NCBI GenBank assembly: GCA_019400425.1
Contig: JAFREE010000012.1
Location: 272,151 to 336,150, forward strand
Direction of reading: 5' to 3'
From: Hymenochaete sp. R1
Taxonomy: Eukaryota; Basidiomycota; Agaricomycetes; Hymenochaetales; Hymenochaetaceae
Length of the DNA stretch: 64,000 nucleotides
Below are positions 20,539 to 64,000 of this stretch, piece by piece; position 1 is the stretch's first letter, and each line of letters starts with the position of its first letter. The notes beneath the pieces are model-generated. The model was not told the DNA's origin. It searched no databases and saw only the letters and a program-made list of their open reading frames with translations. The position numbers and the translations under genes were made by a program.

Positions 20539-20905
20539 TTGAACCAGATCCAATCATTTTGCCCTTCGCGTTGGGTACGTAAAATAAATTTTCTTTTGAC
20601 CACCCTCATGATAACAAAGTAAGCTGGTCCAGTGGCCCAAAAAGCAATGCAATGAAAAATAGAGACGGAATGTATGAAAATGAATTTAGCCGCGAACATG
20701 TGACGTAAACCTTAAGCGAGACTAGCGAGCGCGTCGCGTTGTTGCTGATGGCTGCTGGCTGCAGCTTGCCAACTCAAACTCAACTTCGATCCGCACGGTG
20801 AACACATCTCATCCCCCGGGCATACTGCCTCACGGTACGCATGCTAAGCCGCATAGCTCAGCGTTTACTCAGCGTGTATCTCTTCACATTTAGCTACACT
20901 CGAAG
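20539..20905. other. Intergenic between ALG10 and the Ser-rich gene
   Basis: About 370 bases with no supported gene. It probably holds the ALG10 3' UTR (tacgtaaaataaat near 20576) and the promoter of the next plus-strand gene. Confidence 0.4.
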
Positions 20906-26600: not shown

Positions 26601-27899
26601 TCTGATCGGCCATGTCAAGACTATCATCCATACTTGACTCGGTACTTGCAAAGCTTGCATCGCCCCCTTCGTCTTCACCGCCGAAGTCCAAAGATGCTCT
26701 TGCCTTTTGCAAACGGGAGAGCGCATTAGTCAGTTCCATGTCTTCACCTTCATCTTCATCGCCATCACGATTGGTGTCGTTGCCATTCGCCAAAGCTTGA
26801 AGAGCGAGCCATGCCTGACTGGGTGGTTTGGGTTCTTTGAGTGGCTGCCCAAGAGCAATAGTGAACTCTTTAGGCGCGACTTCTTCTTGAATTCCATCGT
26901 CTCCACTCGCTTGGGTGTGAGTCGTGAGATCCTCGTCGTTCGCTAGTGATCTATCTTCCGCAATTTCGTCGATCTCATCAGAGGCCACGGATGGCTCGGA
27001 AGCAAATTTCACAGATGACCGCCGTGAAGCAATGGAAGCAAGGGAGGACCTCCTTGCAAGCTCACGCTGTTGAGCAAGAGAAAGTGACTTCTTCCGGTCG
27101 ATGTTGATGGCAATGGCTTCGGTGATTTCCATTTCCCCGTCATCTTCGTCATCTCCATCACTGGGTTCTTCGAAGTCTTCTTCAGTCGTAGGAGGTGCCA
27201 TGTCCGGACTGCCCGTGTCGACATTATTTTCATCTGAAAAATGGAAAAAGACAGGATCCGTAGGTGGTTCAGAGGTGTCATCACTATCCATGTCAAGCGA
27301 CATAGACCGCTCTCCATACTCCGTACCAGCAGACATGCGCCTAGAGACCACGCTGGACCTACGTCCCGGATAGTCATTCTCGTTGCTGAGACGAATAGGA
27401 GGGTGTATGACTGGCGACGGCTGGACATCGGGAGACGCAGGGCCGGGCGAGGAGCTTGGTCCACCAGAACTATTAGTATTGTCGTTGCTTTCAAACACGC
27501 TTTAGGTAGAGGAGGTGAGTTAGAAAGAGGTTTATTAACAAGTACACCATGCACTCACCGATATTGAGCCAGAGGTGCAAAGCTCACGCGACGTGCTAGA
27601 CTCTTCCTTGATGTAGTATCTGAGACCTCTGCTCTATACTCAACGGTAGTTGCATCGGGTTGTTCATCATCAGATTCAGCTCGATTTTTTTCTACTCCGT
27701 CATCAGGGCGCCCCTGAATGTTGGATTCCGCATCGACAGAAAATGTGAATGGTGCGGACTTGAGGATACTCTTTCGAGGCGCCAATTGCTTGACTGCCTC
27801 ACCAGGAACAAAACTCTGAGCCCGCTTCCGACCGAGACCTTGTCTGTTTACTCCGGCGGTTGATGACGGTGCAAAGGACTGCCGGCGTTGAGGAGGCAT
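23632..27899 (-). CDS. SPC7: Kinetochore scaffold Spc7/Spc105/KNL1
   Basis: Exon 1 starts MPPQRRQSFAPS at 27899 and carries R-R-V-S-F-A-P-L-A, the R-V-x-F docking site that recruits PP1 in KNL1 proteins. The intron at 27500-27558 restores frame into a ~1.9-kb exon that is Ser/Pro-rich and acidic. That exon has M-E-I-T-E-A-I and M-E-L-T-N-A-L, matching the M-E-L-T motifs that Mps1 phosphorylates to bind Bub1/Bub3. After another intron comes S-I-E-E-F-F-L-M-T-G-V-K-F, the start of the Spc7 domain, then long coiled coil (LVRELEQEK-type heptads) and a C-terminal globular region ending C-V-E-A-A-S-R-F-S. Spc7 is the KMN-network scaffold that links the checkpoint to microtubule binding. Predicted length is about 1,250 residues. 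It is divergent with the kinesin-6 gene. Confidence 0.9.
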
Positions 27900-28112: not shown

Positions 28113-31100
28113 ATGGCGAACCGCAAAGCAACATCTAAGGCTAATCCAGCGTACAAAAGTCTCGCACCTTCAAGATCGACTCGAGCAGCCTCCAATCGTC
28201 AAGCGGAAGATGAAGAACCAGGCTCACCACCCAAACCAGCGGCTTCTGATAAACCACGATCGCGGAAGCCTCTCGTTAATAGGGATAATGTGCCGCCTCC
28301 ATCTCAAAAATCTAATAAAGGCAAGGCATCGCCAATACGTATAACAGATGTGGACGATAGAGAACCAATTAAAGTGCGTAAATCCAGCCCACTAATATGG
28401 ACGTTCATCAACGTAGATTCAGGCGTTCCTCCGAATTCGCCCTAAGTTCGATGAGTCGGAAGACACATCTACACCATACCTCAAGTCGTTGACAGACTTG
28501 ACTGTCCAAATGACGGACCTTTCAGGTACAAACCGAATTCGATTGCACCCACAGGCGCAAATATATACCTTCAATCATGTCTTTCAACCCAATACCGACC
28601 AACCCGAATTTTTCAGAAAGACGACGCTTCCTCTCGTGGGCGATGTGCTCCGCGGTCAAAATGGTCTTATTTTCACGTATGGCGTCACAAATTCGGGAAA
28701 GACCTATACTATTCAGGGCGGCACACAACCAAACACTGCGGGCTTGCTCCCTCGAACGCTTGACGTGGTCTTCAATAGTTTAAAGACCTTACAGGGTTGT
28801 CAACAGGTGAGGAATATCATGGTTTTCCACTTTTTGCAACTAACTTTGAAGTCTGAAGCTTCGTCCGTGCAAATTGGCGAGCGTGGAACGGGTGACAGAC
28901 GACGAAGCCAGTATTCCTCTTCCAAACCTGCCAAATGAAGCCGCACTCGCCGCTTCACTAGGCGAAATAGAAACCCAAGAATGGGATTCAACAATTGTTC
29001 CTGTCGACAAAAACTACGAGTACTCAGTCTGGATCTCGTACGCAGAAGTGTATAATGAGAAGGTGTATGATCTATTGGCTGTCGATTCCGACGAGGCAGA
29101 CGGGTTACTCCCCAGTGGAAATGCAACGCCGCAGCGTGCCAGCGGATGTCCGAAGACCGCAGCGGCAAAGCGGCTGCCGCGTACGACATCCACCGTATGG
29201 TCGAACCTCGCTTCCATTGCAACGTCCACATCGAGCGAAACACTGTTGGTGAAACGGAAGGCTTTGACGTTGAAGACTGATCAAGAATGTGGTGGAAAAT
29301 ATGCCGCCGGCCTTAAGTGTATCCGCGTTCGCTCTGCAGAGGAGGCCAAGCGCATTTTCAGAATGGGCAACATCAACAGACGAGTCTTCGGTACCCTGGC
29401 CAATGCTGTCTCGTCGCGTAGTCACGGCATTTTTACCTTGCGCGTCGTCAAGGTTCATCGAGCTGATCCAGATGATATCACTGTGTCCAGGTTGTCCATT
29501 GTTGACTTAGCGGGTTCGGAACGCACGAAAAACACGCACAACACTGGCGACAGACTGAAGGAGGCTGGAAGTATAAATAAATCCCTTATGGTCCTTGGGC
29601 AATGTATGGAAGCCATGCGTAGCAATCAAAAGCGCTTAGCAGCAACACTTGCTGCTCCCGGAAGAGGAGGTCTCGATCCTTTGAATCCGACCTCCGGCAT
29701 GAAGCTTGCCATTGTGCCTTTCCGTCACAGCAAGCTCACTGAGCTATTTCAAGACTTCTTCGTCGGAGAGCACGAAGGCCGAGCAGTCATGATTGTTAAT
29801 GTTAACCCATATGACACGGGATTTGACGAAAACAGCCACGTCATGCGCTTTGCTGCACTAGCGAGAGAGGTTACAACTGCTCCAACCTCCAGTGTTCCGA
29901 AAGCAGCTGTGAAACGGCCCCAGAGCCCGACGAAAGCTGCTCCCAAACCCAAAGCACCTGAGCCGCTGCGCAGGAATGTTACATTGTCCACTGGTGGATC
30001 CGGAGCAAGAAAGCCCAGTGAATCGGTGGTAGAAATACTTGAGGGTGAGTAATGTGCTCCTTGTAAATTTGTGCCACCTAACATTCTTCAAAGTTACGGA
30101 GGATGAGTCCGAGGGAGATGATGCACCTGTCGACCTGCTTGTCGACGCGCTGTTCGAAGAACTGGAAGATTTACGAATCAAGGTGAGGTCACTGCTGAAC
30201 GACAATATATCGCTTCTAAAAAAAGATGTCCATAGCTCTTCGAATCTGAAATGCGCAGCGCTGTCATCGAGGCCGAGACGCGCGAGGAAGTCATGCATGA
30301 GATGGAGGCGCGAATGATGGACATGGAGAGATTGTTCGCAAAGAGACTCCGAAATGCGGTATGTTGAATCACATACGAAAAAGTCCAATTCATTCATGTG
30401 TTCTATGCGCTGCGCTCAGGTGGAACACAACGAAGCGAAAACTGATGCTAAGATCGATATGCTTCACCAATTTGGCGCTTTCGCGAAAAAATCAGGGAAC
30501 AAAGAGGAAACGGAGTCTGGTGAAGAGGTAAGAACTTCATGTTAATGAAAGAGAAAGGCGTGTTTATACCTTTCTATAGACCTTTGATGACGACGAGTAC
30601 AGTCAGCAGGAGGACTGTTCAGAAGATAGTGAAGAAGAAATCGAAAACAGCATTGAAGTTGATAGGAGCATAGATAGGGGTCAGCGGTCCCCGCAGGCTC
30701 CACTTCGGCACAAAGGTCCATCCAAATTGGCTAACAAGAAGATGTCACATCTTGGTCTTCGTGAAGAAGACATGACCAGTGATGAGAAGGACGCCGATGA
30801 AGATAAGACAGATGAAGGCTCCTCAACAGAATCGGAATCAGAGGAAAGCGAAGAAGAGTTTGATTTCGGCGGTGTCAGTGAAGGTGAAAACGAAGAAAGC
30901 GAAGACGAAGAATATGACCCACCAAAGAAAAAATTATCGAAGGGAAAGGGGAAGGAGGTCAAGCGCCTGAAACCCACCACCCACACAAATTCTCGACCCA
31001 AATCATACATTGGCGTGTCGAACCTGAACAAGAAATTGGAGACCATGTCTCTGTTTGCAGATGCAAATGAAGAAGCTGAGAATGTGCCCCCTCCGAAAAC

Positions 31101-31231
31101 CAAAAGGTTGGTGCGCTCACCCTTTCATATGACCGTTCCTTGATGCCTTTCTCAGAGAATCGACGAGGAAGTCGACTGCAAAGCCCAATATTTCCGGCAC
31201 GAATTTGAGGAGGTCGACGAGATTGGCGTAG
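28113..31231 (+). CDS. Kinesin-6 family motor protein (Klp9/KIF20-like)
   Basis: ATG at 28113 starts a basic N-terminal extension of ~90 residues. The motor domain follows. Its P-loop reads GVTNSGKTYTIQG, and the T-N-S-G-K-T form is characteristic of kinesin-6 (KIF20/KIF23, fission yeast Klp9). Other motor landmarks are YAEVYNEKVYDLL, switch I N-A-V-S-S-R-S-H-G, switch II VDLAGSER, and PFRHSKLTELFQ. A ~70-residue insert separates YDLL from the next core strand, another kinesin-6 trait. The C-terminal part is acidic (EESEEEFDFG) and ends in a basic tail. The last intron, 31107-31155, avoids an early stop at 31143 and gives a tail with R-K-S-T-A-K and R-R-S-T-R-L-A. Kinesin-6 motors work at the anaphase spindle midzone. 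Confidence 0.88.
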
Positions 31232-31464
31232 AACTCTTTGTCGGGTCGTTCCCTTTTCATCATTGTCTTTTCACGATCCTTTCTTGCATGGTATTTTGTC
31301 ATATTTCTTGTATACCAGTCAGAGCAATTGTAAAATTCTAGTGTTTTATGTCGTTGCCGGCCTGTGACGCGGAAAGTGCTTTCGATTGAGAGGCAGGATC
31401 GGCGTGGGCCTCTGCGCCTAGATAATCATCCAAATTGCGGCTGCCACTCTCATCAAATATCATC

Positions 31465-32519
31465 ATGCTTCCAACCCCAGACCTAAGTCACCTCACGAAA
31501 GAAGTCTACGACCATGTATACGAGCCTGCAGGTCCGTCATGCTCCCATCATGGTATACTCGACTTTTGAGCGAAACAAAGACCCGCAGAAGACACCTTTA
31601 TTTTTCTCGACGCGCTCGAAAAGGACGCAGATGAGTTGAAGTCTGTAAATCCGCGAGTTTGCCTAGAGATTGGGTGCGAAATTTTGCTCATGCTCGATAT
31701 GCTTAAATCATTGGTGATCTAACGCAATGTTTATTTTTTTTGAAGGTCTGGTTCTGGGTGTGTGTCTGCCTTCATCGGACAAATTCTCGGTCCGAGCTGC
31801 CGTAAGCCTCGTTTCCTACTTGCCACACGTACACGGCGCAGACACGCAGACACATTATACCTATTCTCTTTATGAAGTCTACTTATGCACAGATATAAAC
31901 GCTCGTGCAGCAGACTGCTCACATCGGACCGGGAAGCAGAACAACGTACAGTCGGGTTTCTTGTGGTGTCCACCAGTCCACCGTAGACGTTGCTGAATTG
32001 AATGCTTTAGGTCATCCTCGATTCGATCATCACAGACCTTACAAAGTCGCTGAATTCGAGGCTCGTATCGTCCGGTGGTGTTGACGTGTTATTATTCAAC
32101 CCTCCCTATGTCCCTACTATCTCCGAAGAAGCCCTCGATGCCCAGGATAAGCGTGGCATAGCTGGATCATGGGCAGGTGGGCTGTGTGGGATGAGTGTAA
32201 CGGATCGGGTGCTCAACTCGTTGACGGTCAGTCCATATCATAAAAGAGCAGTATGATGAAAGACAAAGAGATAAATACAGGGTCTCTTATCAAAGAGTGG
32301 TCGCTTTTACCTCGTCGCTGTGAAGGCCAACGATGTACCATCGATCCGCGAACGTGTCAGGACCAAGCACGGTCTTGAAAGCGAGGTGAATCTTGCTACG
32401 CAGAGCTCTGATACATATCCACTGACGTTTCCTCTGACATTCAGGTCGTTCTTGAGCGACGTGCTGGAAGAGAGTATCTATACGTCGTCAAGTTCTTCTG
32501 GTGTCCAGATCCACATTGA
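31465..32519 (+). CDS. MTQ2: eRF1 (and N6AMT1-type) glutamine methyltransferase
   Basis: Seven exons with introns at 31532-31588, 31674-31745, 31802-31877, 31946-32010, 32227-32280 and 32386-32444. The spliced frame is exactly 224 codons (223 residues), against 221 for yeast Mtq2. The start MLPTPDLSHL and the YEPAEDTFIFLDALE segment match Mtq2/HemK2. The SAM-binding motif I is CLEIGSGSGCVS. The acidic motif is C-T-D-I-N. The catalytic N-P-P-Y (LLFNPPYVP) is typical of Gln/Asn methyltransferases. With Trm112, Mtq2 methylates the GGQ glutamine of release factor eRF1 in the cytosol. The C-terminus ends W-C-P-D-P-H. The ATG lies 233 bases after the kinesin stop. Confidence 0.92.
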
Positions 32520-34297
32520 CCCGCGAGACCTCTACTGCGAGGCGTGAAATGCTACGGAGGGAAAGCGCCAGTACTGAGAGTTGGTGCGAGAAACCGGGGC
32601 TACTGCCGTGAAACTCGACTGTCACGAAACGGGCTCTTCTCACCTTTTCGTCGGAGGTTCCTGGGCCTGTCGACGACCTGTCCAACATCTAGATCAAAAA
32701 TTAGAACAATTCGTCCTCGACCGCATTTTGTGGAGCGAAACGACGCTCCTTACCATTCTGGTTCATGTTCCGTAACAAAACCATCCTCGAGTAGCGACGC
32801 GAGGCGTCCCTGGACCTGGGATCTGTTTCCTGAATCCGCCACACGTCGCCGCCCAGTATGAGAGTGCGAGTTTTCTGTTCATTTCGCGCGAAATTCGACT
32901 TCTCCCGCGGTTTGGCGTCCCTCCATTTGTAAAGTCATTGGGGATATCACTACGAAGTCTTACGACGATCTGATAGAACTAACTCCTTGCTTTGAGTCAG
33001 AGGGTACGGAACGTGGGGTCGCCTGGGAGCAACGTACGCGGGGAATGCTCTTTCAGTATGATTTGGTCTCATGGCTACATTGACCGAGGCAGTGTATTTT
33101 CCACAGTAACCCAAAACTGTATCCGGAGCTTGTGAAGAAATGAATGGAGGGCTTCTTTGGTGTCTCCTGCTCTTCGGTATCCTCACTACGGAGACAGGAA
33201 CTACTGAACCAGCCAGCTTGTGCATTCGGCAAAGAATGTGAACGTTGTTGATGTTGATACGGGAAACGGCTCGGTTTGATTGCTTGGTTGAGCTTGGAGA
33301 AGGCACCGGGAAGGCTGAGGTGAATAGGCGAAATGAGAGGCACGTTTCCTAAAACTGATCCAGCAAGAAGAGGCTAGAATCTATAGATTTGTATCTGGTC
33401 GCTCGCTGTCAACATCATGGGCGGCGGCGGACAGCCAGACGGCTTCATTCTGCAACAAGCATACAATTGCGAGAGAACAGAGAAAATCGAAAGAAAACAG
33501 GTGAATTTATCTTGTGCGTTTTTTCTCCGGTTGGTTGTCGTTGCTCTTTATTAACAAGACCATGGTTGCTTCCGTGTCGATACACAAAACAAAAGGCTTC
33601 CTGTCCTCCTTTTTTTTATTGGCTGGCTCGCTGAACGCACGCGGCAGGGGTTTAACTGTGCTGTGAAGACAAGACAGACAAGACCAACAAGCAACAGAAA
33701 TTGGTAGATGGACCGGATATGCGAACAGGCCAGGCCAGGCATATGATTGATATGCATGTGCCGTTTCATTCTACCGCCAATGAGAACGTATATGGCGTCA
33801 TTGAGTTGAAAGAAGGGTCGAAGATGTTACTGCAGTTCCTGCTTTATTGTGCAATCGCTTGGCTTCCAGGAGTGTGTTGTGCGTCGGTGAATGCCATCGT
33901 CACTAGAAAACTCACCAGGAGCTTCAGGATCCTCTGAAGATGGTCCTTGGTCTGGACCTGGTTGTCTAGAACGAAGGATTGTTTTCTCCTATTGGAAGCC
34001 CTTGGCTGTGCTCGGGAAGTGTCGTCGAAGAGAGACAAAGTTGGGCTCCTTATGGAGGCCTTGTTAGCCGACTGAGCCGAATGCATGCCGATCCGTCGTC
34101 GGCATTTGTAAATAGGCGGGGGCCGAGGTCAGGTGATTTTTATCAGGGACGAGATGCCGGAAGGACCGGCTCACCGGGAAGGTTGTCGAAATGTACGGGA
34201 CTGGTCAGGCACGCGCGGATCCATGGATTCGGCTCAGCTTTTCTGACGACAACCATCAAGGCACACCGTCCCTGCTCATCCCAATCAATGCTCCTCC
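32520..34297. other. Gene-poor stretch, possible decayed coding fragments
   Basis: No gene with a recognisable domain. Two open frames look non-random but cannot be assigned: 32581-32775 (+), with an internal GGSWACRRPVQHLDQ, and a frame around 32860-33086 (+) containing FGVPPFVKSL or, in another frame, LFQYDLVSWLH. Neither extends by an obvious splice. The remainder, including the stretch around 33600-34300, shows no coding signal. Confidence 0.3.
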
Positions 34298-34310
34298 TTA
34301 AATACCTCCC
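34298..34310 (+). promoter_or_regulatory. TATA-like promoter element shared with the second peptide gene
   Basis: TTAAATACCTCCC. The TAAATA core starts 244 bases before the ATG at 34543. The same TAAATACCTYCCC string lies upstream of the minus-strand peptide gene at a nearly identical distance. Confidence 0.55.
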
Positions 34311-34458
34311 CTTCCTCCTTCTTCCACCCCCTCACTCCTTCATTTCTCGTCTCCCTCGCAACTCTTTGGCCTGTCCTCTTTTTCGCGGCGCTCTCCTCGT
34401 CTGAGTTTTTATTCATCCGTCATCGTTGACGTTGACTTTACTTTCCAAGCTCATCTCA

Positions 34459-34514
34459 GTGCGTACCTTCCCGGTCTTTTTTCTTATCCGATGCTAATAT
34501 CAATGTCCCTGCAG
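34459..34514 (+). other. 5' UTR intron of peptide precursor gene
   Basis: A 56-nt intron-like segment: donor gtgcgt, branch-like gctaatat near 34493, acceptor ccctgcag. It ends 28 bases before the ATG, so it would lie in the leader. Confidence 0.6.
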
Positions 34515-34542
34515 AAACAGCCTCACAACCCGACACTCAGCC

Positions 34543-34830
34543 ATGCGTGTCACTTCCATCGTATGCGCACTCGGCCTTGTCGCCCTTACTGGAGCCTCAC
34601 CCGTTCCTGCGCGCGCAGACCTGAAGAGGGATCCTACCCCTGGTTGGGGAAACAAGGACTGGAGGAGGGAAGCACTTGCCGGTAACAAAGACTGGAAGCG
34701 GGAGCCAGAAGCTTCCAATAAGGACTGGAAGAGGGCACCGGAGGCAGGAAACAAGGACTGGAAGAGGGAACCTGAAGCTGCGAATATGGACTGGAAGAGG
34801 GAAGCAGCGCCGGGCAACAAGGACTGGTGA
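34543..34830 (+). CDS. Secreted Kex2-processed repeat peptide precursor (KEP/alpha-factor-like), NKDW type
   Basis: A single-exon 95-residue preproprotein. Residues 1-~19 (MRVTSIVCALGLVALTGAS) are a signal peptide. A short pro-segment ends at D-L-K-R. Then come six peptides divided by dibasic sites (RR once, KR four times): DPTPGWGNKDW, EALAGNKDW, EPEASNKDW, APEAGNKDW, EPEAANMDW, EAAPGNKDW. The last is at the stop. Every peptide ends in D-W, and five of six end in N-K-D-W. Each starts with two X-Pro or X-Ala dipeptides. Kex2 would cut after KR/RR, a Kex1-type carboxypeptidase would remove the basic residues, and a Ste13-type dipeptidyl aminopeptidase could trim the heads to (G/S/A)-N-(K/M)-D-W pentapeptides. 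This is the alpha-factor processing scheme. The function is unknown, and a mating role is not implied. A paralogue lies at 41158-41583. No UstYa, oxidase or transporter gene is adjacent, which argues against a RiPP toxin cluster. Confidence 0.85.
   Translation: MRVTSIVCALGLVALTGASPVPARADLKRDPTPGWGNKDWRREALAGNKDWKREPEASNKDWKRAPEAGNKDWKREPEAANMDWKREAAPGNKDW
34633..34830 (+). repeat. Tandem coding repeat, ~33-nt unit
   Basis: Imperfect tandem units of about 33 nt, each containing aac/aat-aag-gac-tgg followed by aag/agg-cgg/agg. Six D-W codon pairs are present. The gac-tgg pair is invariant in all units, while the dipeptide-head codons vary. Confidence 0.85.
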
Positions 34831-35915
34831 TTTCAGCGAATGACCCATTCTTTGCTTGGACCTTTTCGACGTTTCTCTGCTCTATCTCACCTTTCACCTA
34901 TTGGCGTATACGCCCCCATCGTACTTTTAGACTCTGGTGAGTTGGGTTTGTTCTACACTCTACGTCAAGTGAATGCTAAATGTCATTCATTGCGCTAGCA
35001 TCGGACTTTTCTTTCGAACCCGAACATGCGCTCGAATTGTATCCTATCCCTCTTCCACGCAAGTCAGTGCATTGCCAATCCAATGTACTGATTTAGCACC
35101 GCTCAAGCCATTTCCCGTTCCAATGTTCGCACAATTCATTACATTATTATCAACTCTCGCATTCCGCTTTTCCCTGGGTTTTCGGCTTCAATTTCATTTG
35201 CTCCGGTTTTCCTTCTCCAATTGACGTTCTCGCTTCCCCACCCTCCCCATCTCACGCCACTTCTTTCTCATCGCGCATTCCTGCCTGATACGTACTGTAC
35301 CCACCCACAGCTAAATCGAGGCCGCATTCGTGTCTAACTCAACCTTCTTTCACACCAGTGATTAACTTTGGATCTATTCGACTCTTGCTGCCATAGCCTT
35401 TTTTCATAGTTTGTATGCGTGGGTGTATTGGACGTCCGTACAGTACTCGTACTACATATAAATTTGTTGTGTTTTATTTACATACCTTCCCAAAATCAAT
35501 CTTGTTCTGTTTAGTGTGTGAGTGCCAAGGAGTGCTATGTTTGAGTTTACCTCGAGGAGAAATCACGTTTGGCGATAGTTATTTGAAATTCGAGTGTTGC
35601 GGAAGCCGCAGCCACAGCCTCCGGAGTCCATCATGCATGTATGTATGCGCTGTTCGGCGCAATTGAGCGAGTGAAATTCAACTGCATTTGTCATTTGGAG
35701 GCGTCGTCTGTCTGGGCCGGGAGCATTGAAAGCCATATTTTCCTCTCACGTCTCTCAACGCCGCAGCTGTGTTGTCTATCAACGATCATGATTATTACTC
35801 GCCCGACTCGCCTGCCACTGGCAGTACCCGCCTGTAGTCCCACTTGCTGGTTCTACCCGTCGAAGTCGAAGTCAATATGAATTCTAATATTACTACATTA
35901 TAATGACGCTAACGG

Positions 35916-35931
35916 CCCCCCCCCCCCCCCC
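35916..35931. repeat. Poly(C) run, 16 nt
   Basis: Uninterrupted C16 on the plus strand within the gene-poor region. Confidence 0.9.
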
Positions 35932-38900
35932 ATCCGAGTCTTGGCGATCGAAAGGGATCCTTATTGGACACCCTTCGAAACTTGACATGACCAGACCACA
36001 CTCAGCGACAGCCTCCGAGCCTGAGAGAGAGACGGTGAACGGGTAACGGCCGCGACTCGGACGCGCTCTACACTTATTCGACGCTCGAGCCGGATAACCC
36101 GAACCGTGACCTGACGCCTCCTCCATCACTCGCCGGGCCGTGTCTCACTATTTCTTGTCTTAAACTCAAAGAAGTCTTCAAGCCATCCCTCTATGATAGA
36201 TCAGCAGGTCGAATCTGGCTGGTCAGCCGCAAGGAACCGCAGTAAGGGAAGGGGTCATCGTTTGCGGGGAACAGCCATTGAGCCAACCCAGCCGTGGCCG
36301 GGCCACGTTGGGCAGCCCGAGCCTGAGCCTGAGCGCATGCAAGCTTAAGAGCTGGGCACACAGAACTTGCAAGCTCGGAAAGGGACCAATCAATCATCAT
36401 ATTGGTAGACGGAAGCTCGTGATTATCATTAGGTGGAAAGAAAGGAGTTCCGGTGGATGGGGAGGGGATGGGTGGATGTGATTTGCGCTGGCAGCAGCTC
36501 AGCCCGAGTCGCGGCGTCAACAACATCTGTCTGTCTGGCATTTCATCTCGATGCGATCTGGGTGCTTAGGCTTAGGCTGCTCGTACGCATGCTTCGTCGA
36601 GATGCCAGTGAATCCCGGCGGATGCGTATCTTCCAAACAAACTTTTCCTTGTCATGTGGTGTTGCGTTTGATGGCTTTCGTCGTTCTTTCGTGGCCATCA
36701 ACTCCCAATACCCAATATGTTGGTATCCGCCGACATACACGGCGGGAGTGCATTCAGTAGCGGCTCGGGGTCGGGGAACGCTCATCGGTGGATCATTCCG
36801 ATATGTTTGGGCTTAATGAAACTGGCAAGTACGGTACCCAGAATGATGTTCGCCGGTAGCAAGGTAAAGCTAACTTTTCACGATTCAGCTAGTCCTCCAC
36901 GCGGCGGTGTGTACAACTTGAACTTGAACTTGAAGCTCAACGTTCTCCAAACTCGAACAGGTCCGCAGCATCTATCGGCCATAAGCTTCCAATTCTAATT
37001 CCAGGAATAAAAAAACCACGCTCGACCGACCCCAAGGGCTCCGACTCGCTAAAAATATCCTATCCTCCCGCAACGTGTATATGGCATCATCCATCAACTC
37101 CCACCGGCGGCCCAGATACCAAAGAACCTTCAAACAGATTCAAGAAAGCCTAAGCCTGACTTTCCCAAGTTTTCCGTTTTCTCCGCAGCCACATCCGTTG
37201 TTTTTCCCTCGGCGTGGAGCTTTCCTTTCGTCGCGCCGCTATCGGCATTACAGACGGACACATAGTGCTAAACATGCCTAACGCCACATCTCAACAGCCA
37301 GCAAACTCGAAGGCAGGAGGATCAGGAAGAGCAAAAATTCCCGAGGCTTTTCCACATCCAAGTAAGGGGTTCAAGTTCTCATTTTCCAATTGCGTATAGC
37401 TGTTCTCGTAGGTCTGGTTCTGGTACGTTCGTCGAACTTCAGGATTTCAACATGCGACGATGCTATCTGCCTTTTCGCAGACATGCCCATGTCAGTCAGT
37501 GCCTTCGACGGGCTTTTTGAAGGACGGCCTGGCTGAATAAACACGGCGGCCGAGGCGCGATGAGCGCGACGGCCACTACATAATGCGTCATATGCTCTCA
37601 ATATTACGGCGGGCACTGGACTCGATTCCCCGCCCGCTCAATGCTCGCTGGTTAAATATGAGTTTACAGCGACGTTCTCCCTCCGTCTTTTACTGTAATC
37701 TAGGATCACAGGTCACTCTTGCTCCGAGTGATGCCAGTGCATAAATAAGGACATGGCCAAAAGCCAATCTGAGACTGCCCTCAGGCTCTCCAGGCAGGTC
37801 ATCGGCATGCTATTTTCGGAGTCTGATGATTTGATCCCGTTTTCATCGATCGATTCTTCCCTTCAGGTTCAAGTTGTTTGAAGCAACATCTCCGTCATTC
37901 GATCTCCAATTTTCTCAAAGCCTCTTTACTATTGAAAACTTAAATTCCACTCCAGCGCGCTCTTCCATTCTAAATCTGAATAAAGCTCAGAGCGCGGATC
38001 TAACCCCGTCTGGCATGACCGGGGAAAGGATGGATGCGCTCTGGGCTCGGAATAGGCTTAGAAGAGGAGATGGATTGATTAATGTTGAAAGGCGCTTAAG
38101 CAAGGTACGTCTGTGGTATTCCCTTTCATCTATTCTTGTATGGGTTGTTGATAACTACGAGTGGATTCGACAGGTACGAGAAGACCTTTCTTTTTCGCGA
38201 AGGATGTACGCACGTATGTACCTGTATATATGCCAGTAATTAACATCACCATCATGATCAACTGTCTTACCAGGACAATCGATTCGATGATCCGTCAAGT
38301 TAATGATGTACGCGATTTCGAATCGCACCTACGTCAGTGTATTAGTGGTAAGGAGAGTTATCATCCAAACTGATACTATCCATCCCCACGAGCCTGGACT
38401 CCTGGACTCGCGGCTACGATGCTGGACCCTGGGATCGGACACAGAGTCATACTCATACTCTTCTTTGAAGGAGAAAAATAAAACGCTGATCCAAGTCCCT
38501 TTCCCTCCACTTCACTTCCCTCTCATCATGACGTTTCCAATTCCCACTTCGACGCTGAAAGCGCTTCCTGGGCCTATTTATGGTCGACCCGCGTTCCGAT
38601 TCAAGCTTTATCTTCTCGGCGGTGGGAAAAAATGTGGATAGAGTTCTCCGACTCCTTGCCAGTGGGTATTTGGCGGGCGCCAGTGCCAGGACGGTACTGG
38701 AGGTTCCAAGCTAAGGCGATACTTGGTCGCTGATTTTGGCCAAGCTCACGTTCCGAGTCCTCGTATATGGACCACGCTTGGTAAATCTTCACTACGTGTA
38801 TGTGGCGTTCTCATACCTTCTCAACATCTAATACCCTTTCCCCTGCGAATCAAACACTTCCATCCCCGTCTCCATGGCTATTTCTGGAACGAAATTGAGA

Positions 38901-39661
38901 TTCTATCTCAGTATAGTATCTGATTCCAACCCCGACTCCAAGGACGTAAGGGAAAAGTCGTCTTATTCCTCCATCGCCGTCCATCCCGGGCCATTTCATT
39001 TCATTTCGTGGACGCGGCACAGTGACTGACACGCGCAAGACCGACTCGGATGCGTCCTCCCATCTCCATCTTTCCTATTAATATTCTATCTAATTCGAAT
39101 CCGGGAATCCTTGGATATAATCATACGTGAACCAAGAAGACACGCCGTCCACACGCATCCAAGATCTGCGCCCGCTTTCGGACCTCCCCTCCCCCCTCCC
39201 CAAAGAAAGGGAAAATCCATCAACCATGATCATGACCATGCGATCCCGCCTACAGATTCAGCCAAAGGTTCACTGTGACGATCACGACCAGGATTGGGAT
39301 TGGGAGGGACGGTCATCCCAGCGTCCCCATGCCGACCTCGTCCGTCCCTGACCTCGACTTCGACTTTAGGTTCCCTCTCCCTCCTCCTTCCCCTTCTCAG
39401 GATTCCAAGACTCCGGACCTTCGAAGAGTACACCAACACATGGGCCACACATGGACCTGTTCAATGCTTCTCCCTCCCCCCCTTCTTCTTATCTCTTTAA
39501 TCTATGCAGATGCAGACGTACATCATGCATCATGATCTGATCGCCTACCAGTGATAATTCAACTATAAACTATCAACTATCAACTTTCCCGCGCCAGTGT
39601 AGTAGTGTACAGAACTTGTGAGATGGTGAAACGATAGGGTCTGTCAGTGAGAGAAAGGGGA

Positions 39662-39673
39662 GGGGGGGGGGGG
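39662..39673. repeat. Poly(G) run, 12 nt
   Basis: Uninterrupted G12 on the plus strand. Confidence 0.85.
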
Positions 39674-39765
39674 TCTCAACATCTAGTACTGGTACTATTG
39701 CGAGGTGCGAGGAAGTGTCAGTCCTAGTACTTGTGGAGGACTCGGAATTACGAGTGCTTTGCACA

Positions 39766-39798
39766 CAGACTCAGACTCAGACGCAGACTCAGACGCAG
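39766..39798. repeat. CAGACK hexanucleotide microsatellite
   Basis: Five and a half tandem units, cagact cagact cagacg cagact cagacg cag. It is not part of a supported reading frame. Confidence 0.85.
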
Positions 39799-41157
39799 TA
39801 CTAGTGAGTCTGGTACTCTCGATCCAATCTCATTGCTCATCATGCTCAAATTCGTGCTCATGCTCACGTATCTCTGCTGCTGCTGCTCGTTCCTCCGGGG
39901 TTGAAACCGCATTAGTACACTCTTCGTTTAATTTCGTTTCGTTCCATTCCGTCATACGAAGCTTGCGAGCGGCGAGCGGCGAGCCCTCCGGGTCCCGCTG
40001 ACGAGGACGAAGTCGGAGCTACGACTCGGAAAAACGGTGTATCGAGTATCGAGTTCTCATTCCGAACACATTAACTTCAAACTAGACTGTAGAGTTACGA
40101 AACACTGAAACACTGGAACAAGAGTAGCCTGAGGCCCTGGACTTCGGGCTCTGGCTCTGAGCGCTGGCAGATACAATTCGAAAAGTAATTGGAAGGGGGA
40201 AGGGGGCAAGGCTACATTCTTATCCATATCCGTATCCATATCCGTGCGAGAAGAGTGAAGAGTGAAGAAAAGAGAGAGAAAGTTTAAAAAAAAATGGGGG
40301 GGGGAAGGAAGTTAATACTAGTAGCTAAACGAGTAAGGACCGTGAAGGATGACGACGGACATCGTGTCAAGCTTGCTGTAGAATAGGTGATACTGATACT
40401 TGGAAGGAAACAGATATTGAGAGTGACAAAAAAGTGAGAGAAGGTGCGGACACGCGCGTGTGGGTCCGTTGAGAGATGGAAAAAGAAAGTAGACGAATTG
40501 AGAGGGGCAAAAAAAAAGAAGAGGGAAAAAAGGTAGGGATTATATTATGGTCGATAAAAAACGAAAGTATACGAGAGTGATTTGGCAGATAGTTTTGCTG
40601 GTCGGTCGGAACATACAAAACCTGCCAGTGGATAGAGAAGCGGGAAGCTGAGTGTAGGCGCAGGCTCAACGGAGCAAGGCTTGAAATTACGCGGATCGGG
40701 TTGACGAGCATTGGTCCGATTCGTTTCTCGTTCGTCGAGAGATGATGGAGATGAAGAAAGGCTAAAGCACAACAAGTCGGTAAAATTACAAACTGTGCGG
40801 TAAGCAACGGTGATCAGTCATTGGTTCCTTCAGGGCAATGAATGGAGAAGCGCATATATGCGGGAAGGGAAGAGAAAGCGGATGGCCACGTACTCCTGGT
40901 TTGAGTCCCAATTAATCCATTAACACGAGACCCAGTGAACAAAGATCCATCCACCCATCAATCCACCCACACCCACCAATCTACAAAGAAGCCGAGAATC
41001 CCGAGCTAGCATATACATCTTTTGTTAGATCCACACAACGTTCCTCTAGTCTGTTGCACACACAAAAACAACGCGAACGTACCGGGAGAACGGTAAGATC
41101 CCGAGAAACCGGGATTCCCGGACGCTCGGGATCTCGGGACGTCCTTTCGTTTTCCCT

Positions 41158-41583
41158 TCATTTCCAATCTTTGCCCCCACCACCCATGTTCCCCTGTGGC
41201 GTGCGCTTCCAGTCCTTGCTGGCACCTCCCATGTTCCCCTGCGGGTGCCTGCGCCAGTCCTTTCCTGAACCCCCCATATTTCCTTGTGGGTCGCGACGCC
41301 AGTCTTTGCCTGAACCTCCCATGTTTCCTTGCTGTTAGCAGATTGACAGGAGAGTTGAGGTGGATTGTCAGTCGTAGGGTTCAGAAAGCAGCCAAAGAAA
41401 AAAGAGACGCACTGGGATGCGTTTGAGGTTTTCCTCTCCTGGGAAAGTCTACCGCATAAACGGAGAGAATGAGTGAACAGCTGAGAGCGTGCAGTGTCGA
41501 GTGATACATACAGGAGCGGCGGAGACGAAAGCGGCAAGGAGAAGCAGGCACGAGAAGAAGAGATAGATCCGAGCAGAGAACAT
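41158..41583 (-). CDS. Secreted Kex2-processed repeat peptide precursor (KEP/alpha-factor-like), KDW type
   Basis: Three exons on the minus strand: 41583-41512, 41448-41413 and 41331-41158. Introns are 41449-41511 (gtatgt...gtag) and 41332-41412 (gtgcgt...acag). Spliced length is 94 codons, 93 residues. Exon 1 encodes a signal peptide (MFSARIYLFFSCLLLLAAFV, then a small-residue S-A-A-P end). Exon 2 ends the pro-segment at E-N-L-K-R. Four 13-residue peptides follow, divided by RR, RR and KR: IPQGNMGGSGKDW, DPQGNMGGSGKDW, HPQGNMGGASKDW, TPQGNMGGGGKDW. A final K precedes the stop. The first residue varies while Pro2 is fixed, so each copy begins with an X-Pro dipeptide that Ste13-type enzymes can remove, leaving Q-G-N-M-G-G-x-x-K-D-W. 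Kex1-type trimming would remove the final K. Intron 2 falls between P and Q of the first repeat, exactly at that predicted trimming point. Function unknown. It is a structural paralogue of the gene at 34543. Confidence 0.85.
41161..41331 (-). repeat. Tandem coding repeat, 45-nt unit
   Basis: Four units with a 45-nt period on the minus strand. Each contains the codons for Q-G-N-M-G-G followed by a-a-a/g-gac/t-tgg and a dibasic pair. The units are nearly identical at the DNA level, so they probably arose by recent duplication or are homogenised. Confidence 0.85.
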
Positions 41584-41817
41584 GATTTTTGAAGTTGGGA
41601 GAGAAGACCGAGGATAAAGCGAAGTATAACAACAGATAGAGCGAGCGAGGGATCAGGACAGATGGGCTGTGTAAGCGCAGGTGGCGTTGAGAGAGATCGA
41701 GGAGAGAGAAAGAGAGACTCGAGGGTGCGAGAAGTCGACTGAGGAGGGACGGTGGATTGAGGTACAGCAGATGAGAGTACGGGAAGAAGAGGGAAGGGGG
41801 GGAAGAGGGAAAAGAGA

Positions 41818-41831
41818 GGGAAGGTATTTAT
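41818..41831 (-). promoter_or_regulatory. TATA-like promoter element shared with the first peptide gene
   Basis: On the minus strand, ATAAATACCTTCCC. The TAAATA core starts 247 bases before the ATG at 41583. It matches TTAAATACCTCCC upstream of the plus-strand peptide gene and is followed by the same kind of CT-rich tract. Confidence 0.55.
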
Positions 41832-42900
41832 TTCGGAGAGTGGATGAATGATGATGATGGGATATTAATATTAAATAAAAGAGAGAGGTGGGAAAAACGC
41901 GGAGGGTCGAGGCCTCTCATTGTAAATTGTAAATTGGATTGTTTATCTAACTTGCCGAGATCCTCTCTTTCCTTTTATGGTATCCATTTCTGGACCCACA
42001 CTCCCACACACTCGCACTCTCCCTTTGCTTCCGCCGTCTTCCAGCTTTTCACTTACAAGCTCGAGAGCTCTGTACATCTGGACGAAACTGCAACACTCAA
42101 GTGTTAATATTAAAAATTTTGTTGTTGTTATTGTTTATCTATATATTCCAGAGCCTCGTGTCCGTATGGCCAGGCACAAATCCCACTTCTTTCCCATTCA
42201 AATAATATTAATGCACCCAATGATCTCAATCCAATCCCGCTCCGGAACACCCGCTGCTCATTTTATTCATCCAGCTCTCACACACTCATCTCTTCCATCA
42301 CCCTTCCTTTCTTGGTCTCTCCTTCTTAAATCCGGTTTCCTGTGCTGCCACCTGGCCATTCCTCGCCTCGTCCGCAGTTTGCAGTTCACAGTTCGGACTA
42401 CCTCAAATATCTCACTGCCATCCGCATCCAATCGCGACAATCCCCTGATCCCATCTCGCATCTTCGTCGAAACACCGGCGACCTGAGCCACTTCTGCCAC
42501 TCTCTCGCTCCAAGTTTCTCCTTCCCCCTCTCATCTCGAATCAGATCAAACGACAGCGACCGTTGCCAAGTCTACCAGTGATACCACCTGCAAGTGGGCC
42601 ACTCAAAAAGGGACCTGAACGCCGTTTCTTCGGCCCTTTCCTGGGCCCTGGTTTTCTCCATGAAATTATCAACAACGATCAACATGTATTGTACACATAT
42701 GCCCTCTCGTCTCGTTGTTGTTCATCCTATTCCAGGCAGCTCAGTAGAGCTGCGGTGTAATACCAACTTAAGAACCGAACGCAGACGCATTCTCGTCCGC
42801 CGGTGCATCCATATCAATCCACAATACGAGTTTCACCGCACATCGATATGAGCCGAGCCATTCGAACAAGAAAATAAACGGAAAAGACAAAAGCGTCGGA

Positions 42901-42914
42901 GGGGGGGGGGGGGG
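42901..42914. repeat. Poly(G) run, 14 nt
   Basis: Uninterrupted G14 on the plus strand. Confidence 0.85.
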
Positions 42915-43331
42915 AGAGAGGACAGAAACACTTGTGTATATTTAGCACCAGGCCTTCGAGTCAGACTCACCCAGCATGAAACACTAACAACAGTCCGATC
43001 GATCCGCCAAGCCTGCCGCGACACTGGCAACACGAAAGGGAAAAAGCTCGATCCGCTTCTGTTCCTGTTCGTTAATAACTTGGTTTATAAGCCCTCTAAG
43101 CGTTTCATCATGATTCATGATACATGATATCACCTCCCTTCGTTCAGCGTTTTCACCCTTCCCCTTCCTTTTTCCTTTTCCTTTTTTAACGGTCGGTTCA
43201 AGCAAGTTGGCGCGGTCCATCGGTCGGTCCTTTTTATAGATATAGATATCCAGGAACGAGCTTCACCAAGTTCATGTGTTATGAATGAGGCCATCATGAT
43301 CGCGTGTATCTGTATCACATGGTACTCACCT

Positions 43332-43347
43332 CCCCCCCCCCCCCCCC
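43332..43347. repeat. Poly(C) run, 16 nt
   Basis: Uninterrupted C16 on the plus strand. Confidence 0.85.
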
Positions 43348-43782
43348 TTCCTCTCTTTCCTTGCGCTTACGTGCCGTACAGGCCGATTCGTAGCCATCAT
43401 CTGGACGTAGTAACTTCTCGAGCTTTGAAAGAATGGGAAGGGTAAAAAATTGTGATCAGTGGTCATCCGTCAAGCAAACGCTAATGATGCGAGGACGAAC
43501 GAACGAGGTATCCTCCATCACTGAGTCACTGACAGTCTCTCGACTGTCTTCCTTCTAGTAGCATCCGTCTCCTTGTAGCTTTTCAATTACGACGAGGGCT
43601 TCTCCCGCCAGTGGGGGAAGGGGGAGGGGGACTATTAACCGTCCCATCATTGACCCAACCCGATTTCCCGAACGTGCTGTGAGATCCCTGGGATCTCGCA
43701 GTCACAGGGTATAGTTCCGTCTCCCCCTCCCAGAGCAAATAGGCAAGACCGTCTGAAGGTGGCGCTGGTTGAGTACCAGTGA

Positions 43783-43797
43783 CCCCCCCCCCCCCCC
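43783..43797. repeat. Poly(C) run, 15 nt
   Basis: Uninterrupted C15 on the plus strand. Confidence 0.85.
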
Positions 43798-44100
43798 AAC
43801 CTTTTTTCCCCTCCTCGGACCCGGCGGCAGGAGGGTCGACGCTCAGGCTAAAACGCACGTTCCAATCCCAACTTGAAGATATATATACGGCGCAACAACT
43901 TGAAGCATCATGATATTCAGTATGTATGTATGAGTATTAATACTGATAGTACCACCATACGTACCGTACCTGATCCACACCCGCAACTTCAACTTCTCCG
44001 AGTCCCATCTCCCTCTCCATCTTCGAGCACGTCCGGCGGATCTACTAGCAAGCCACCCCGATCGATAAACTTGAAGTTCGCCAATCCACCCCCACCCCCA

Positions 44101-44115
44101 CCCCCCCCCCCCCCC
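44101..44115. repeat. Poly(C) run, 15 nt
   Basis: C15 preceded by cccaccccca, so the wider C-rich tract is about 28 nt. Confidence 0.85.
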
Positions 44116-45204
44116 AACCGCGGAAAAGAACGACCCTCCTTCGACGTGTGCGATATCCCCAATCCCTGTCGTCATTGTCATTGATCAGTCAAGAGCACAC
44201 GCACGCACGCGACTTTCCTTCTTTCCACCGGCAAGTCTACATGCGACATGCGCGAGTGCTAATTTTTTGATGATACAATTACAAACCTTTCCGTTCCCGT
44301 TCTATTCCATGTACTGTACCACGTACCATGTACCAACCGCCTCCGCCCGAAGTTGTCTTACGACAACTAAAAGGAGAGGCTCTGATGTCTTTTTAACGAA
44401 GAGAACGAAAGAAAGAAAAAAGAAGAACGTACTGGAAGCGCTATGGTTGGTCGACAGAGGTTGGGGTTCAATGAATGTAAACCCCTGGCTGGTGAATATC
44501 TGATCATAGTCGTGAGCAATGTTGATGTCGTTCTATTCACTTCCACTACTTGACCCGTCGCACTTTGATGATGACGCTGACGCTGGGAATGCTGGGACTG
44601 GTTTGAATGCACACCCAGCTCACGGAAGTACCCAGTCAAGTGCAATTGACGGACAATCGGGAAATCGGACAATCTCCCACATCGTCCCTCCAGGAGCGTC
44701 CAGAGTCAGAATAACGAAAAATAGATCAAACAAAAAAAATCATATACCATTATCAATTATCGCTGCAGACTCCGCCGACATTACCAAGCATACAAACGTT
44801 ATCTTAACACTTCCAAGCAAACAAAAAAGACACAACGAAGACACAACGAAGCAAAGAAAAAAAGAAAGAGAAAACCACTCTTACTCGTATTCTAATTTCC
44901 CAAACCGGCTGAAGATTGTCCTTGTGTACTCACGGAAGTTCCTGTGTAAGCCTACACCAACCAAGCCATAGCCCAGAAAGAGCCTTAAGATGCATACATT
45001 CTGAAGCTGAAGCGGAGCGCAACGCTGACTCAGATCATTGATCAACCCTGGACAACTCCCGTCCGCATCTGGAGACCGAGCTTCTTAACCATCGAAGGCG
45101 GGAGAGAGCCTAACTGGACGGGTATAATCTTCGGGTGACCCTAACGACATATCGGAGAAGGTTTGCTTAAGTCATCGTGCCTTACAATATCTATATCGTA
45201 CGAA

Positions 45205-47264
45205 TTAAGCCCTCACATGAAGAAGATGGTACCGAAGCCCGCTGAGCTGTTTGTACTCCTTGCGGCAGCCTGCGTGGGGGCATTTATGTGATTTCTCTGG
45301 CTTTGACGGAAGTCTAGGCTGTTCAATTGATTCTGACATGGTCATGGTCACATCGGTGCTGGAACTCGAAGACGATATAACGGACGCGACGGAATTAGAA
45401 AATACGAGGCGGTAGTGATCTTTCGCTCTGAATACGGGAGAATGAAGTTAGGGATCCATGGATGCGTAAAATGGGATTACGAGGGATGACGCTTACATTT
45501 GGAGATGATACTGGAGGCCGTTTATACTCTATAAAATAATCTTTAGACGGACCGAGAAAAAAATATGATATCGAGAAAGACTGACTTTCCAGCCCTTCGT
45601 ACAGCCCTCTAAACCGCATTTGAATGGTGTCTCGTCAACGACACTGTCTTTGTTCATGTGGACATCCTTGAAATGAGAAAGAAGCTCCCCGGACGTCGCA
45701 AAACAATGAGAGCTTGGAGAAGAATCAATAGCGCATGAGCTGTGACCGCATGCATATGCAAGTATAGATGGACTAGACGTTTATTAGTATGACATATGAC
45801 AGAACGTGTATTTGCAAGAGGGATGAATACGTACTCTCCGGCAACAGACAGCGAAGACGATAATTTCGGCGCAGGCTTTACCGGGCCTACGTCTTGCGCA
45901 CGAGCCCTTGCGCCCGCTTCAGTTGCCGTGGTCGTTCTCTTACGTTTGCGGTCGGAAATGGAACCAGCCTGATCGCCATGCGTGGCAATGTTATCACCGG
46001 AGAGTGATGGAGACAGCGCAGCGGCAGCATGAGCAAGAGTTGCGAGAGCACCCAAACTCTGACTGACGTCCAGTTGCATCTCCTGCGGTTCAAGACCCAG
46101 CATTGTCGGTTGGGAAGAAGATAAATCCGACTCGAACCTGGGAGGGGGATCGGACACCACTTCCGACGAAAAATTGCATTGCACATCCATGTCGTAAGTC
46201 TCGTAATTGGTTGGCGAGCCTTCAAGTGGATGGCTAGGGTCGAGCGGCGGCGTTACTGGAGGTTCGGAAGGATATGGGGATCCTTGAGGCTCGCCTCGTG
46301 TTAAAGCATTCGACGATACCGGACCGGTCTGACTCAACGCTGGTGTATCCTCTCCCTCAGATTGTTGAAAGATCGAGGTATTTCTGTGCTCATAATCAAT
46401 GCCTTGGTTATTTCCAGCATCTCTAGATTCTCGATACATCGGATCTGGGCCTTCTATCGACGAACGCACAGAGGAAGCACCTGAAGAATCGGAATTTGAA
46501 CGTTGTTGCAAGAAGGACAGTAAAGCCGGATCCACATTGTGTATGTGCGTCCTAGGTAACGATGGGTCGTACACACCGTTTCCAAATCCTTCTATTCCAT
46601 TTCCTAAAAACAAAGCCCAGTGTTCTGTATCTGATTGAGGAAACACCTCCGCATTCAGGGTTATGGTCGCCTGTTGATTCATAGTGCCCATCCCATCGAA
46701 GATTTTCTTCCTCTGCAAAAGCCTCCATCTGTTGCGGCAACCAAGTCCACTTCGCTCCAATTCTTGACCAATGCGGCCCCACTGAGGGTGCTGAGGGTCA
46801 CTTTGCCTCATCAAAGCATCTAGGAGGTGCAGGTCTTCCTCCAGAGACCAGTCGCCCTTCTTCAAATTGGGATCGAGGGCTTCTCTATAACGTTTCGAGC
46901 AAGCATCATCGGTCCTACCTGGTATAGCACGAGCAATTTGAGACCATTTATTAGGATACTTGTCGAATAGCGAAATGAGTAGCTGGTCCTCTTCCGGCGA
47001 CCATGCGCACTTCTTAACCGAAGGGGACAGAGAGTGGAGCCAACGCTTTCAACCGTACAATGTATCAGTGGATGGCACCTTTTATGTATAAAAGGCTGGT
47101 CAATCAATGCACACCTTTCTACAAGCTTTGTTGGTCCTACCGGGGACGGACAAAGCGATTATCTTCCACTTCTCAGTGTTATCTCCATAGATGCGGACTG
47201 CATCAACCAGCTTTGCATCTTCTTCTGATGTCCATGGCCGTCCCACATTGGATAGGCCATGCAT
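45205..47264 (-). CDS. Three-repeat Myb transcription factor with C-terminal C2H2 fingers
   Basis: Five exons: 47264-47115, 47045-45835, 45772-45586, 45528-45497 and 45427-45205. They total exactly 601 codons (600 residues). After MHGLSNVG come three Myb/SANT repeats: R1 R-P-W-T-S-E-E-D...P-G-R-T-N-K-A-C-R-K-R-W, R2 C-A-W-S-P-E-E-D...P-G-R-T-D-D-A-C-S-K-R-Y, R3 G-D-W-S-L-E-E-D...C-R-N-R-W-R-L-L-Q-R-K. A ~290-residue disordered linker follows. The last ~140 residues hold finger-like units. The first is degenerate (C-G-H-S-S-C...H-F-K-D-V-H). The second is C-G-L-E-G-C-T-K-G-W-K-S-I-N-G-L-Q-Y-H with a distant H. The third is C-P-H-A-G-C-R-K-E-Y-K-Q-L-S-G-L-R-Y-H-L-L-H. The W/Y-K-x-x-x-G-L-x-Y-H helix resembles Sfp1/JAZF1 fingers. 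Without the last three exons the Myb frame would run on to a spurious stop near 45654. It is divergent with PRP17. Probably a nuclear DNA-binding regulator, targets unknown. Confidence 0.85.

Positions 47265-60167: not shown

Positions 60168-64000
<3,833 letters not shown>

Follow-up and report, generated by a model that had tools for sequence, protein, structure and literature searches.

Among 317 basidiomycete strains surveyed by Umemura et al. in 2020, 271 had at least one Kex2-processed repeat protein (KEP), with 1680 KEPs overall, and 76 KEPs were related to six alpha-like precursors that include Pleurotus KEP 1091723 (PMC7329392). Le Marquer et al. (2019) reported Basidiomycota KEPs with clear Ste13 signatures, likened them to alpha-factor, described a conserved XSDW repeat in one ectomycorrhizal basidiomycete and in saprotrophic ones, and speculated about nonsexual hormones with cognate G protein-coupled receptors (PMC6339444). 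Vogt et al. (2022) detected SGVAADW-type peptides in Pleurotus (oyster mushroom) and SGTGEASAADW in Lentinula (shiitake), remarked on their common AADW end, and found pyroglutamate on KEP peptides of Coprinopsis (PMC9769878). According to the same paper, Ste13 removes X-A and X-P dipeptides, and the KEP products SGVAADW and MSGVAADW of Pleurotus ostreatus and Pleurotus eryngii, as well as LSGVAADW of P. ostreatus, were detected in fruiting bodies. Here we describe two linked genes, gene 1 and gene 2, in a stretch of 64,000 nucleotides ("the window") from Hymenochaete sp. R1 (assembly GCA_019400425.1, contig JAFREE010000012.1, forward-strand positions 272,151 to 336,150); coordinates below are positions in the window unless a contig is named. 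By their predicted anatomy, the two belong to the D-W-ended KEPs with Ste13 signatures.

Results

Two linked genes are predicted to encode D-W repeat precursors

Gene 1 (34543 to 34830, forward strand) is a single uninterrupted open reading frame (ORF) for a repeat precursor of 95 amino acids. Its translation begins with MRVTSIVCALGLVALTGASPVPARADLKR and continues with six DW-terminated units. The signal-peptide-like N terminus (34543 to 34599, cut site guessed) was assigned by hydropathy only, with no dedicated predictor: the peak over 12 amino acids is 2.41, at residues 6 to 17, far above the remainder of the protein. Beyond an LKR site at the end of the pro-region, the repeat region (34630 to 34827; tandem-repeat score, 199) reads DPTPGWGNKDW, EALAGNKDW, EPEASNKDW, APEAGNKDW, EPEAANMDW, and EAAPGNKDW. 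One RR and four KR linkers join these units, and the stop codon stands immediately 3′ of the last W codon. Each unit divides into a head (DPTP, EALA, EPEA, APEA, EPEA, and EAAP, respectively) and a core (GWGNKDW, GNKDW, SNKDW, GNKDW, ANMDW, and GNKDW). In silico cutting released GNKDW three times, together with SNKDW, ANMDW, and GWGNKDW.

Gene 2 lies on the reverse strand, with its ATG at 41583 and its stop codon ending at 41158. It has no single open frame; the hydrophobic start and the repeats stand apart, and the protein of 93 amino acids is assembled via two predicted phase-0 GT-AG introns. Exon 1 (41512 to 41583) encodes a signal-peptide-like N terminus, again by hydropathy only and with no dedicated predictor, where the 12-amino-acid peak reaches 2.76 at residues 9 to 20, far above the remainder of the protein. 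Predicted intron 1 (41449 to 41511; 63 bp, GTATGT...GTAG) leads to exon 2 of the splice model (41413 to 41448; 36 bp), which carries the pro-end TFPGEENLKRIP with its ENLKR. Predicted intron 2 (41332 to 41412; 81 bp, GTGCGT...AACAG) is followed by exon 3 (41158 to 41331; tandem-repeat score, 155), whose translation gives four units of the form (I/D/H/T)P-QGNMGG(SG/SG/AS/GG)KDW, the first IP being encoded by exon 2. The linkers are RR, RR, and KR, and the protein ends in DWK and a stop; the last unit would therefore need Kex1-type trimming.

The LKR site of gene 2 hinges on the predicted introns. We enumerated splice models with one or two introns of 40 to 200 bp, GTRNG donors, and YAG acceptors, and the only other open model had one 180-bp intron and 81 amino acids, without the LKR site. 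The model with two short introns was favored because the STE3 and Kex2 genes of the same genome have 46 to 80 bp between neighboring exon matches, the match edges only approximating introns; in the dipeptidyl peptidase IV (DPPIV) gene, one gap between matches is 153 bp. Both splice models yielded identical released peptides on in silico cutting, namely QGNMGGSGKDW twice, QGNMGGASKDW, and QGNMGGGGKDW.

The preliminary description of this DNA had placed the two precursors ~6.3 kb apart, and their stop codons are indeed 6,327 bp apart, on opposite strands. The lengths that it gave, 95 and 93 amino acids, agree with the open frame of gene 1 and the spliced model of gene 2, and the signal-like start, LKR site, tandem repeats, dibasic linkers, and X-Pro/X-Ala heads that it listed are present in both genes. 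Its D-W terminus is correct for the gene 1 protein and for the cores of all units in both genes (10/10), but the gene 2 protein carries one K after its last unit.

The repeat pattern exceeds chance, and the peptide is conserved across repeats

When the letters of each protein were shuffled 20,000 times from residue 25 onward, no shuffle equalled its actual count of DW followed by a dibasic site. We scanned the genome (27.8 Mb, 336 contigs; both genes on contig C24) with the strict pattern DW-(K/R)R...DW-(K/R)R, which spans 3 to 12 residues from dibasic site to DW and would overlook any unit of more than 14 residues as well as cores that end in W but lack Asp. Of the seven matches obtained, gene 1 accounts for four and gene 2 for two; the remaining one, on contig C326, runs directly into an in-frame stop. 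The reversed strict pattern, used as a control, had no match genome-wide. Within this genome, D-W repeat precursors as defined by the strict pattern are this linked pair alone. A loose DW pattern (699 matches versus 305 for reversed controls) was dropped as uninformative.

Head dipeptides carry A or P at their second position in 16 of 16 cases (12/12 in gene 1, 4/4 in gene 2) and at their first position in 2 of 16 (2/12 and 0/4, respectively); the Fisher p of 5e-7 for this contrast is indicative only, since head boundaries were drawn visually and repeats do not count as independent observations. Across the four units of gene 2, the head opens with I, D, H, and T in turn, and the P that follows is invariant. 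By translation, the heads of gene 1 vary only where the specificity expected of Ste13 permits. The processing grammar of alpha-factor proposed in the preliminary description is thus recovered in the LKR and dibasic sites, the second head positions, and the D-W ends.

Proportions of synonymous (pS) and nonsynonymous (pN) differences were 0.87 and 0.094 among the six GNKDW-type cores of gene 1 and 0.75 and 0.117 among the four units of gene 2, unit pairs not being independent in either comparison. The head segments of gene 1 were more variable (pN, 0.30). Synonymous divergence with the peptide kept across repeats argues that selection acts on the peptide and not on the DNA.

The two genes are probably inverted tandem duplicates

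A promoter word at matching distance, similar pre-pro regions, and adjacency together indicate that gene 1 and gene 2 are probably inverted tandem duplicates. The same three observations count against the possibility, named in the preliminary description, that the nearest homologues of the two genes are unrelated. The TATA-like word TAAATACCTCCCCT (34299 to 34312, forward strand), a putative promoter element, precedes the ATG of gene 1 by 244 bp, and its counterpart TAAATACCTTCCCT (41817 to 41830, reverse strand) precedes that of gene 2 by 247 bp. The word TAAATACCYYCCCT has three matches in the 27.8-Mb genome, two of them upstream of gene 1 and gene 2. Pyrimidine-rich sequence accounts for part of the local alignment score of the upstream regions, a score that one of 500 Markov resamplings reached. 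For the pre-pro regions aligned up to the common LKR, two of 2000 letter shuffles reached the score, as did one of 2000 shuffles within thirds. BLASTP of gene 1 against gene 2 gave 40% over 84 positions (E 9e-14), owing in considerable part to the repeats. Used as a genome query, gene 2 matched itself and gene 1 (E 4.5e-7), and the chance of a randomly placed second gene lying so near is ~5e-4. The predicted coding-sequence introns differ between the genes, which suggests that the duplication is not recent.

Gene 1 also probably carries a 5′ untranslated region intron starting at 34459. The predicted form with consensus ends (34459 to 34514, forward strand; GTGCGT...CTGCAG) has alternative later acceptors at 34520 and 34540. 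The stretch from the promoter word to the start codon of gene 1 contains just two ATGs, and splicing to any of the three acceptors would excise both.

Comparison with described precursors

Like KEP 1091723 of P. ostreatus and KEP 1439342 of P. eryngii, the pair combines Kex2 repeats, Ste13-type X-A/X-P heads, and short D-W cores (PMC9769878). The Pleurotus core is SGVAADW, whereas the pair has (G/S/A)N(K/M)DW, and the pertinent sections of that paper describe no linked long partner. KEP 2599 of Lentinula edodes has a repeated 11-residue D-W core, SGTGEASAADW, of the same length as the predicted gene 2 product (PMC9769878). However, the two cores differ except for -DW, and the Ste13 motifs named in those sections belong to the Pleurotus KEPs, with none named for KEP 2599. 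The Basidiomycota XSDW motif is likewise a KEP repeat ending in D-W, with SDW there and KDW here (PMC6339444). Ascomycete alpha-factor precursors have in common with the pair a signal, a KR-ended pro-region, repeats, and Ste13 heads, and in gene 1 the stop codon follows the last core directly. Unlike those precursors, neither protein matched the MF_alpha Pfam family at E up to 1, and STE2 had no match in the genome, a search that lacked a positive control, although a similar one does find STE3. Family libraries left gene 1 unmatched and gave gene 2 only sub-threshold matches to a collagen-like adhesin (NCBIfam) and GATA (Pfam). Cryptococcus Qsp1 is also a secreted basidiomycete peptide signal with proteolytic maturation; unlike the pair, it is imported via Opt1 and matured extracellularly by Pqp1, and the accounts drawn on here do not describe it as a Kex2 repeat precursor.

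In an open-access text search, the strings GNKDW and KDWRR occurred in no paper and KDWKR only in an unrelated physics paper; SGVAADW occurred in Vogt et al. (2022) and in a mushroom-peptide review. The preliminary description had proposed that the pair may be a different secreted signal. Such a signal, distinct from the CaaX pheromones, is a sensible and likely reading and has already been proposed in print for the class. Novelty of the phenomenon is unsupported, since such Basidiomycota precursors were published between 2019 and 2022 (PMC6339444 and PMC9769878). The contribution of this locus is that two such genes are linked and that their predicted products, one type short and the other long, have one tail in common.

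Mating genes and processing enzymes in the same genome

CaaX pheromones are prenylated and received by STE3. Five ORFs of this genome that match the basidiomycete pheromone family end in a CaaX box (YCVIS, YCVIA, YCVIS, YCVIA, and YCVVA); they sit on contigs C293, C52, C325, C295, and C293, with none on C24, and two of the five matches are weak alone (E 0.145 and 5.31). STE3 matches were found on C293, not on the contig of the pair. These pheromones resemble gene 1 and gene 2 as small peptide precursors but differ in their contigs and in the C-terminal CaaX, which is absent from gene 1 (ending in DW) and gene 2 (ending in DWK). Two of the CaaX ORFs (C295:103557-103640 and C293:192833-192901) hold two tandem pheromone-like modules in one frame, reading ...YCVVS-QRPEAP...YCVIA and ...YCVVA-ARPQP...YCVVA. 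In each, the last CaaX alone is C-terminal, which leaves two possibilities, release of the inner one by cleavage or a different splicing of the ORF.

Matches to the Kex2-type P-domain were found on two contigs, one DPPIV/Ste13-like gene is present, and S10 carboxypeptidase matches occurred on nine contigs, Kex1 not being singled out among the nine. Judged from these matches, the genome holds the machinery for Kex2/Kex1/Ste13-type maturation. UstYa has four matches in the genome, all on C315. At 130398-131773 and 166024-167396 of that contig they form two close pairs ~35 kb apart, with opposite strands within each pair, and these are possible dikaritin-type clusters.

Neighborhood of the pair

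Neighbors named by Pfam, among 49 frames of the window, encode kinesin, Myb, SacI-domain, kinase, ALG10, KH-domain, RWD, Urb2, and zinc-finger proteins. Six open frames between the precursors (34.8 to 41.1 kb) were scanned and had no Pfam match above the cutoff. A codon-bias scan gave weak candidates only and was a poor test, missing the gene 1 frame at threshold and listing its antisense frame instead. In the ~14.5 kb between the kinesin and Myb genes (31100 to 45650), no confident gene was found besides the two precursors, with the codon-bias scan weak for short genes and Pfam run on part of the short frames. Two long open frames, 20894 to 23236 (forward strand, 780 amino acids) and 25477 to 27501 (reverse strand, 674 amino acids), had no Pfam match at E 0.001. 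The window ends in a near-pure G run of 128 bases (63873 to 64000, 98% match), perhaps an assembly artifact.

Discussion

We consider it fairly probable, on the sequence features described above, that both precursors are processed as alpha-factor is, that short and long linear peptides are likely secreted, and that these have a signaling role outside mating. Kex2 would cut at the dibasic sites after signal peptidase had acted, and a Kex1-type carboxypeptidase and a Ste13-type dipeptidyl peptidase would trim the units. A gene 1 head would amount to two removable dipeptides, such as EP-EA. Setting EP-EA-GNKDW against DP-QG-NMGGSGKDW suggests that Q-G of gene 2 takes the place of the second dipeptide that can be removed in gene 1. 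Under the Ste13 rule, Q-G should not be removed. We infer that this second dipeptide would resist Ste13 in gene 2, so that trimming would halt one step earlier; the resulting 11-residue product would keep an N-terminal Gln, likely converted to pyroglutamate as in the Coprinopsis KEP peptides. The products would be short linear peptides of the GNKDW type from gene 1 and long ones of the QGNMGGSGKDW type from gene 2, both likely secreted, and they may act as a cell-to-cell signal unconnected with mating. A further idea, which we hold to be rather unlikely, is that the pair offers one receptor two ligands with a common -KDW tail, co-made from matching promoters and serving as agonist and modulator outside mating. 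The change of the second dipeptide from E-A to Q-G would then distinguish a pentapeptide from an 11-residue, pyroglutamate-capped peptide.

Several points weigh against this interpretation. Five residues would make a very short receptor ligand. The preliminary description had suggested looking for a nearby G protein-coupled receptor, and none emerged: all 49 stop-to-stop frames of at least 150 amino acids in the window were free of Pfam matches to seven-transmembrane (7TM) or oligopeptide-transporter families, although short exons could escape such a scan. Knockouts of six kep genes in Coprinopsis had no growth or fruiting phenotype, which was taken as favoring roles towards other organisms (PMC9769878). 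As for the kinship of the two genes, the promoter word was chosen after aligning both upstream regions, and a genome query with gene 1, run to E 10, recovered gene 1 alone and missed gene 2.

The Coprinopsis result bears on the possibility, doubtful but real in our view, that the peptides are processed as described and aimed at other organisms, be they bacteria, plants, grazers, or competing species. When the six knockouts had no phenotype in axenic culture, their authors proposed interaction with the biotic environment, and the amplified repeat number would fit a mass product. However, the cores are tiny and without Cys, those synthetic KEP peptides that were assayed had no antibacterial activity in the same work (PMC9769878), and the strictly kept DW tail looks more like recognition than bulk toxicity.

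That the peptides signal by import and not through a surface receptor seems to us improbable. Qsp1 is a precedent, as a secreted basidiomycete peptide taken up via Opt1 that has functions in mating and in control of the cell wall, and the lack of a STE2 match, in a search without a positive control, fits this view. Against it, the transporter search, confined to frames of the window, found none next to the pair.

Dikaritin-type ribosomally synthesized and post-translationally modified peptide (RiPP) precursors have an identical layout, signal plus Kex2 repeats. DUF3328 (UstYa) genes lie near 17 of the 76 KEPs related to alpha-like Basidiomycota precursors (PMC7329392), and this genome has four UstYa matches. 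Cyclization of the cores by UstYa-family oxidases nevertheless appears highly improbable here, as no UstYa match falls in the window, all four that were found being on C315 and the 49 scanned frames having none, and the cores lack Tyr. True alpha-type mating pheromones would account for the alpha-factor-like grammar and the aromatic C-terminal residue, but we give this reading scarcely any credence: the five CaaX ORFs and STE3 matches provide the usual system, the pair lies on a different contig from STE3, and STE2 (with the caveat above) and MF_alpha are unmatched. A structural product of the cell wall or surface, after the Kex2-processed repeat precursor Rep1 of Ustilago, whose peptides form amyloid-like fibrils (PMC9769878), is just as hard to credit, as the predicted units leave 5 to 11 hydrophilic residues and carry the Ste13 heads that Rep1 is noted to lack (PMC6339444).

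Returning to a secreted signal outside mating, the role of Ste13-signature peptides in basidiomycetes, which mate through CaaX lipopeptides, is left open in the pertinent sections of earlier work (PMC9769878 and PMC6339444). Redundancy among precursors could have masked phenotypes elsewhere. A genome with two linked D-W precursors by the strict pattern, predicted short and long products, and matching promoter words would be convenient for seeking a response to the removal of both together.

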